Below are positions 29,580 through 31,862 of a stretch of DNA of 64,000 nucleotides, piece after piece; position 1 is the first letter of the stretch, and every line of letters begins with the position of its first letter. The DNA is from Chloroflexota bacterium. GTDB lineage: Bacteria; Chloroflexota; UBA6077; FW602-bin22; JACPRP01. The notes beneath the pieces were generated by a model. That model was not told the DNA's origin, ran no database searches, and saw only the letters and a program-made list of their open reading frames with translations. The position numbers were made by a program, and so were the translations under genes. Where the stretch lies: positions 1 through 64,000 of the forward strand of contig JACPRP010000035.1 in NCBI GenBank assembly GCA_016189905.1, read 5' to 3'.

Positions 29580-31862
29580 TCAGTTATCAGGTATGGCTTC
29601 GTTCACCACACCAACTGGATGCCTCTCGGCGCCCGGCCGTTGGCCCTCATCGCCGACGACATCCCAGAGCTTGGCCACGATACTGCCATTCCCCAGGTTC
29701 TCGGCAAGCTCGATCAGCTCATCTACCTGGCGTAGAATCTCGAACCGGTCTTTGCTATGTTTTTCACGTATGCGGAATATGTGCGGGTGCGTAGTGGAGG
29801 AGCGCTCTTCTTCATCGCCAAGAAGCTCCTCGTGCATCTTCTCGCCGGGGCGCACACCGGTGTACACCACGGGAATGTCTACGCCCGGTCGCAGCCCGCG
29901 AAGGCGAATAAGGCGTCGCGCCAGGTCGTCGATGCGGACCCGCTGACCCATGTCGAGCATGAATATGTCGCCGCCCTGAGTGATGGTTGCGGCCTGAATA
30001 ATCAGGCTGACCGCCTCGGGGATGCTCATGAGGTAGCGCGTCATTTCGGGGTGGGTCACAGTGACCGGCCCACCCCGATCGATCTGGCGCTCGAAGGTGG
30101 GGACCACGCTGCCCCTCGATCCAAGGACGTTGCCGAAGCGCACGGCCGTGAAGATGGTCGATCGTCTAGGGTTGAGGATCGATGATCTAGGATTGAGGGT
30201 TGATAAACTAGGGTTGAGGGTTGTCCGCCTGGCTCCGAGCGTCGGAGTCCCGTGAAGCGGGACGGACTCCGTTGGCGGAGAGGGTTGAGCGTTGTCCGCC
30301 TCGCTCCGAGCGTCGGAGTCCCGTGAAGCGGGACGGGCTCCGTTGACGGAGGGGGTTGGGGGTTGGGGGTTAAGGGTGGCCGCGTCGGCGATCATCATCT
30401 CCCCTATCCGCTTGGTCGCGCCCATCACCGAGCGCGGATTGATGGCCTTGTCGGTGGAAACGAGGACGAACCGCTCGGCCCCGTAACGGGCGGCCAGGCT
30501 GGCTGTGATGCGCGTGCCCAGAACGTTGACCCTGACGGCTTCGTCGGGGTATTCTTCCATCAGCGGGACGTGCTTGTAAGCGGCGGCGTGAAACACAACT
30601 TGAGGCTGGCGCCGGGCGAAGACAGCCCCCATTTTGGCTTCGTTTGTCACATCCGCGATGATGGGAGTGACGGGGAGGGTTGTCCGCCTTGCTCCGAGCG
30701 TCGGTCCGCCTTCCGGACTCCGACACCATTCATGGACTGGTCGGAGAGTCCCGTGAAGCGGGACGGACTCCGTTAGCGGAGAGGGTTGAGGGGTGAGGGA
30801 CGCCACGAGAACGTGCTCCACCGATTCGACCGTGTCGAAGAGGCCGGATTCGTTGTTGTCTAGCATAAGAAGCTGCCGGGGCTCGAAGGTGACGATCTGG
30901 CGGCAGAGCTCGGAACCGATGGAGCCGGCCGCGCCGGTGACCAGAACGTTCTTGTTCGCCAGCAGGTTCCTACAGGCCTCAAAGTCAATATGGACGGGGA
31001 CGCGGCCCAGCAGGTCTTCGGGGGTGACATCCCGTATTGGGAGCTGCCCACTGACACCGCTGATCACGTCGAACATATTGGGGATCACCTTGATCACCGC
31101 CGGCGTGGACTCGCAGATATCCAGGATGGCACGGAAATCCGCGCCGGAGACATTGTGGATGGCGATCACGGTGAGGTCCACACCGTGCCGGGCCACAATG
31201 TCGGGTATGGCGTGCCGTCCGCCGAGGACCTTTATGCCGTGGATGCGCATCCCGTGTTTGATAGGATCGTCGTCCACGAACCCCACCAGTCGGTATTGCT
31301 GACCCTCTTTCTGGTGCAAGAAGCGCCAGGCCAGCAATTGCCCGACCTCGCCCGCCCCAACCATTAGAACCCGCGTTCGTTCCTGATGAGGCTGGCCCAA
31401 CAGGCCCCACCAGCGCCATCGCAAGCCGCTCCAGAGCCGCCTGCGGTATCGAACACCGACGAACCCCACGAGAATGAACAGGCCGGCCAGAAGCACAACG
31501 CTGACTGGAACTGGCCTGTCTCTGAGCCAGAGCAGGTCGAGCGCGGCGAGAAAGCCTGTGCTCGCGACGACGGAGCCCGCGATGACGACGACCTCCCCGG
31601 CCGAGGCGTAGCGCCAGATGCGGTGATACAGGCGAAACAGGTAATTGATCCCGCAGTAGACGGCTATCGCCAGCAGGGAAAAGAGCATCGCGGGCTGTAG
31701 GTCGATATCGGCGGTGATGGATCGTGCGGCCCAGGCCAGGGCGAGGCTGAGCACGACGATGCTCGCGTCGAGGACGACCCAGGGGACGCGCCGGCGAATG
31801 AAGATGCGCATGCTGGAGAAGTATCGAGATTCTACGTCGCAGGGATTGTCAAGGCGACTCAT
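29580..31862 (-). CDS. CapD/PglF/WbpM-like membrane NDP-sugar 4,6-dehydratase with two in-frame repeat insertions
   Basis: NVLVTGAAGSIGSELCRQI, VFHAAAYKHVPLMEEYP, STDKAINPRSVMGATKRIGE, RFGNVLGSRGSVVPTFERQI; N-terminal TM and CoA-binding-like domain. Confidence 0.92.
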   Translation of the reverse strand: MSRLDNPCDVESRYFSSMRIFIRRRVPWVVLDASIVVLSLALAWAARSITADIDLQPAMLFSLLAIAVYCGINYLFRLYHRIWRYASAGEVVVIAGSVVASTGFLAALDLLWLRDRPVPVSVVLLAGLFILVGFVGVRYRRRLWSGLRWRWWGLLGQPHQERTRVLMVGAGEVGQLLAWRFLHQKEGQQYRLVGFVDDDPIKHGMRIHGIKVLGGRHAIPDIVARHGVDLTVIAIHNVSGADFRAILDICESTPAVIKVIPNMFDVISGVSGQLPIRDVTPEDLLGRVPVHIDFEACRNLLANKNVLVTGAAGSIGSELCRQIVTFEPRQLLMLDNNESGLFDTVESVEHVLVASLTPQPSPLTESVPLHGTLRPVHEWCRSPEGGPTLGARRTTLPVTPIIADVTNEAKMGAVFARRQPQVVFHAAAYKHVPLMEEYPDEAVRVNVLGTRITASLAARYGAERFVLVSTDKAINPRSVMGATKRIGEMMIADAATLNPQPPTPSVNGARPASRDSDARSEADNAQPSPPTESVPLHGTPTLGARRTTLNPSLSTLNPRSSILNPRRSTIFTAVRFGNVLGSRGSVVPTFERQIDRGGPVTVTHPEMTRYLMSIPEAVSLIIQAATITQGGDIFMLDMGQRVRIDDLARRLIRLRGLRPGVDIPVVYTGVRPGEKMHEELLGDEEERSSTTHPHIFRIREKHSKDRFEILRQVDELIELAENLGNGSIVAKLWDVVGDEGQRPGAERHPVGVVNEAIPDN
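30158..30378. repeat. In-frame insertion: short (TLNPRSS-like) repeats plus two 71-bp units
   Basis: Units 30214-30284 and 30285-30355: ttgag(g/c)gttgtccgcct(g/c)gctccgagcgtcggagtcccgtgaagcgggacgg(a/g)ctccgttg(g/a)cgga(g/g)(a/g)ggg; flanked by ctagggttgagg-type repeats. Confidence 0.85.
30675..30805. repeat. In-frame insertion: interrupted third copy of the same repeat unit
   Basis: gagggttgtccgccttgctccgagcgtcgg...agtcccgtgaagcgggacggactccgttagcggagagggttgagg. Confidence 0.8.

Follow-up and report, generated by a model that had tools for sequence, protein, structure and literature searches.

In-frame palindromic repeats within two predicted loops of a PglF/CapD-like dehydratase from an uncultured Chloroflexota bacterium

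A gene for a PglF/CapD-like nucleotide-sugar 4,6-dehydratase in the window, which is the full stretch of 64,000 nucleotides analysed here, carries two blocks of palindromic repeat DNA in its open frame. Intergenic repeats of this lineage probably entered two length-tolerant loops of the enzyme in frame, and were presumably inserted or copied from elsewhere in the genome. The source would be a multi-hairpin unit of 56 bp (or 98 bp) that lies between genes in tracts of the heptamer CAACCCT. The points of entry may have been two alpha-to-beta loops in the Rossmann fold, where only net length changes in multiples of three would have survived. In the cell, the repeats would then be translated along with the rest of the enzyme and form two disordered loops, with the fold kept and the activity presumably retained.

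The dehydratase is encoded at 29580-31862 on the minus strand, in 760 codons without interruption. The original prediction, made from the sequence, had described a frame open through two repeat blocks, and this holds; the gene is not frameshifted. The 760-residue product matches PF02719 with E=2e-101, and its N-terminal part consists of helices and a CoA_binding_3 domain. The PF02719 domain, the conserved motifs and a PglF fold together identify it as a PglF/CapD 4,6-dehydratase, with PglF of C. jejuni as its nearest solved relative. The canonical motifs had been said to resume beside the blocks, and in comparison with homologues they are indeed undamaged on either side of both inserts. The neighbouring genes encode an O-antigen ligase (Wzy_C), a bacterial sugar transferase and a DegT aminotransferase; the region is therefore a polysaccharide locus. 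The homologues L017-L019 sit in open frames of 1367-1429 codons, which exceeds what the enzyme needs. This could be a fusion, or simply high GC.

The host genome is a draft MAG, 86% complete and in 125 contigs, with a GroEL that looks Chloroflexota-like, which is no more than a lead. Short-read assemblies fail at repeats. A misassembly or collapsed repeat, or else a gene that is already dying, might thus give a similar picture. It is very improbable however, given that at each of two separate sites the gene carries on in frame across both flanks, with the motifs intact, although the copy number within a block could be wrong.

Alignment with 13 insert-free homologues from relatives puts the excess in the dehydratase at 70 amino acids plus about 41. 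Insert B, the smaller one, covers residues 357-397 (about 30672-30794, minus strand), and insert A covers residues 499-568 (about 30159-30368, minus strand). The two blocks are therefore real, but slightly narrower than the 30158-30378 and 30675-30805 first given. The peptides had been read correctly from both; given that the gene is on the minus strand, 30675-30805 is the N-terminal block.

The spacing between conserved motifs gives the same picture. It could be scored in 84 proteins including the window's own, drawn from relatives in the class and the phylum as well as from viral contigs. At site B the spacing is 108 residues here and 52-72 in the 83 homologues. At site A it is 90 residues here and 13-24 in the homologues, with two outliers of 36 and 53. 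The original prediction would have failed if unrelated taxa carried the same loops. None of the 83 homologues does, but in L129, which accounts for the spacing of 53, site A is extended by about 32 amino acids of unrelated sequence. Site A is therefore naturally length-variable. Within the 84 proteins examined, the repeat-derived loops appear specific to the window's dehydratase, as judged from sequence comparison. The contig of the most similar homologue (56%; L016, G023:C485) ends about 30 residues ahead of insertion site B, which may be a break at a repeat, or chance.

Insert A consists of two tandem 56-bp palindromic units and insert B of one 98-bp relative, both within CAACCCT heptamer tracts. 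The coordinates in this paragraph are on the minus strand. Copy 1 of the unit in insert A is at 30295-30350 and copy 2 at 30224-30279. Upstream of these, in gene orientation, is a heptamer tract of a C-rich variant, CCAACCC (30351-30376). On the downstream side there are three heptamer-based 21-bp repeats (30153-30219), which encode TLNPSLS, TLNPRSS and ILNPRRS, the last copy reaching a few bases into host sequence. The 98-bp version in insert B (30683-30780) has TCCGC...GCGGA ends, CAACCCTC on both sides, and an extra hairpin, CTCCGACCAGTCCATGAATGGTGTCGGAG. In gene orientation the unit consensus is TCCG(C/T)(C/T)AACGGAG...GGCGGA, flanked on either side by CAACCCTC or a near copy. These flanks could be a target duplication, or just the heptamer, so that they give no clear sign of mobility.

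A repeat unit common to both blocks had been reported, and it is confirmed. Tandem 71-bp copies at 30210-30280 and 30281-30351 are 94% identical, where the period is made up of one 56-bp unit and 15 bp of heptamer sequence. Insert B matches this 71-bp unit over 50 nt at 30746-30795 (a third copy, 94%) and over 30 nt at 30675-30704 (97%).

An AlphaFold2 model of the dehydratase, built with 38 homologues, matches the PglF crystal structure 5bjw with a TM of 0.92 by target length. The pLDDT is 96-98 in the core and mostly below 50 in the inserts (segments 363-392 and 507-565). In the model, insert B joins helix 338-356 to strand 398-402, and insert A joins helix 479-497 to strand 570-576. Both inserts are thus predicted to lie in disordered alpha-to-beta loops outside the folded core, which agrees with the loop placement proposed at the outset. 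In a Rossmann fold, such loops are on the side of the sheet opposite to its catalytic end. Most likely the added loops are neutral or almost neutral, without a function of their own.

The inserts could also be removed from the product, if the RNA is processed or if ribosomes bypass them at the hairpins. The inserts are hairpin-rich and fold somewhat better than shuffles (z -1.7 to -2.0), which is only modestly above chance. However, each insert keeps the frame open and has a length divisible by three, which bypassing would not need. Such removal is extremely improbable.

An open frame across repeats may in itself seem remarkable, and this idea was rejected. Dinucleotide shuffling of the blocks leaves 52% and 61% of the shuffles open, and an open frame by itself therefore says little about selection. 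Block A is open in two of three frames and block B in one of three. Of the three sense frames, all are stop-free in the 56-bp unit and one in the 98-bp unit. A run of the sense heptamer gives the same peptide cycle in every frame, 7 and 3 being coprime. Such a run contains no stop, and the antisense run stops in all frames. Heptamer copy number (7 being 1 mod 3) can also retune the length of a block. Constraint falls on net length only; by simple counting, finding a multiple of three in both inserts would add a factor of about nine. The original prediction held that selection for frame must have acted on each insertion as a whole. Given the shuffled blocks, the all-frame 56-bp unit and the retuning by heptamers, this is too strong.

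These same lengths would allow for phase variation. A polysaccharide enzyme would be turned off and on as the gene gains or loses a 71-bp unit (2 mod 3) or a heptamer (1 mod 3), and the all-frame-open 56-bp unit would keep the repeat free of stops. The 94%-identical tandem 71-bp units and the short heptamer runs within the gene would suit this, as would the Wzy_C, sugar transferase and DegT neighbours. The heptamer runs are short and imperfect however, no variant is known, and identical heptamers are found in or beside unrelated ORFs. A switch of this kind is very improbable, and in-frame entry of intergenic repeats stays the preferred reading.

BLAST within the organism's own genome finds copies of the unit on other contigs, with E down to 1e-17; the repeat is therefore not chance. 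The palindromic unit recurs at four intergenic loci, on contigs C2, C41, C60 and C66, with no conserved ORF at these places. Within the 86%-complete draft the dehydratase is the only gene in which it was found. A count of copies within and between genes had been proposed as a check, and this came to one gene against four intergenic loci. The genome-wide counts of units and heptamers rest on pattern and similarity searches of the draft contigs. The unit was found in 0 of 28 class relatives, and a limited literature search yielded no published description of it.

The loci also contain some further hairpins. The copies L009 (C2) and L013 (C60) have flanking sequence in common, and resemble one duplicated intergenic segment instead of two independent insertions. 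Beside the units of L012 (C41) and L014 (C66) are longer hairpins that end in GTAG, of the GTAGTTCGGGGGCTTGTCCCCCGA and GTAGCGCGGGGGCTCGTCCCCCGC types, resembling GTAG REPs. At L232 (C50:4294-4320) a weak match lies within a hairpin that seems to be related (GGTCCGCCTTGCGGACTCCGAGACC...) and may have diverged from the unit. In six unrelated MAGs there are exact 19-mer matches; several of these lie in other palindromic repeats, and they were rejected as evidence of the unit's family. The 19-mer GAGTCCCGTGAAGCGGGAC, exact in unrelated phyla (L056, L058, L059, L061), is a recurrent hairpin tip, in several cases that of GTCATTGCGAG- or TCAGGATGAC-type palindromic repeats.

The heptamer is more widespread. 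Its pattern has 26 matches in the genome versus 1 for a reversed-pattern control, and relatives have 0-1. The other ORFs bearing it are those of a zinc-ribbon protein, a putative secreted protein (sub-threshold GH39 match), a glycosyltransferase and an SNF2 helicase, together with a long ORF whose only match is FlgD_ig. In the glycosyltransferase the tract is at the extreme N-terminus, and perhaps untranslated. Homologue comparison of these ORFs covered the SNF2 helicase, where the tract is in a variable loop: it is absent from a 65%-identical homologue, and a second relative carries a similarly long but different stretch there. From these sequences, the helicase loop looks like the most convincing further case in or beside ORFs. 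The antisense tracts in the SNF2 and GH39-like ORFs (L095 2001-2029 and L096 2001-2029) have a TACCCTC variant, in which the expected TGA becomes AGA; the variant is found outside an ORF too, at C84. A general link between heptamers and hairpins was put to the test and rejected.

The system of coding-tolerated repeats that had been proposed therefore stands in part. Repeat DNA is in frame and absent from homologues, but the palindrome is in one gene with its other copies intergenic, and the other ORFs share the heptamer tract only.

The repeats may also have grown in place. Slippage would have expanded a heptamer tract in each of two length-variable loops, with hairpin units added or copied locally, by template switching or gene conversion between the sites, and without a mobile element. 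Palindrome-free heptamer tracts do exist in or beside other ORFs, heptamers bound the units at both sites, and the 71-bp period is a tandem duplication. In addition, a RAYT transposase (PF01797) had no match in the genome, in searches where control profiles did match. However, unit ends and internal hairpins recur at the four distant intergenic loci, which have no heptamers; at some time the sequence must therefore have spread through the genome by copying. Nor are hairpins enriched beside the other heptamer tracts (1.79 vs 1.84 per kb). Growth in place is unlikely on this evidence, though it deserves to be taken seriously.

In-frame entry from elsewhere has precedent in Rickettsia palindromic elements (RPEs) and intragenic REPs (PMC2229807, PMC3733652). 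RPEs and the palindromic repeats of Wolbachia occur intergenically as well as in frame in conserved genes, where they are translated as extra peptide (PMC2229807). The repeat described here likewise is both intergenic and in frame within a conserved gene, which is a likeness of kind, by description. RPEs however are reported from 19 reading frames and measure 105-146 bp, whereas here there is one gene, a unit of 56 or 98 bp set in heptamers, and a different lineage.

Intragenic REPs encode up to 82 amino acids and include two insertions in one gene, as in uvrA of O. terrae and uvrB of R. conorii (PMC3733652). Some species have a single modified gene, so several genes are not needed for this kind (PMC3733652). 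The dehydratase shares with them the two insertions per gene, the grouped repeats and the long encoded peptide. REPs are marked by GTAG/CGTC. The unit differs in having several hairpins, no RAYT gene in its genome and no GTAG; by eye, a CGTC overlaps the GTCCCG stem, but inside the unit and not at its end.

Other families are similar in part. ERIC/RU and the 107-bp Correia MITEs are small intergenic repeats with open frames that can be fused in frame to genes (PMC2229807, PMC2759123), and in this they are alike. The unit differs from these families in that its terminal repeats are only about 6 bp (TCCGCC/GGCGGA in one 56-bp copy), without TA ends and with no clear target duplication. The GGGACCG heptanucleotide element of G. 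metallireducens is multi-copy, in and between genes (PMC2700814). The 7-bp repeats here are similarly multi-copy, intergenic and intragenic, but the heptamer is a different one, and is joined with a palindromic unit. The novelty is in the lineage and in the combination of a palindromic unit with heptamers; in-frame palindromic repeats as a kind are already known.

The best-known examples of such repeats come from Rickettsia, Wolbachia and some REP-rich genomes. The dehydratase adds one from an uncultured lineage, in which a single enzyme has taken two insertions and its alpha-to-beta loops give a structural reason for their tolerance. This indicates how repeat DNA can lengthen the loops of a folded enzyme. 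In addition, neither the 56-bp unit nor the sense heptamer has a stop in any of its three frames. This suggests a simple rule for the repeats that genes are able to absorb, one that is testable on other genomes.
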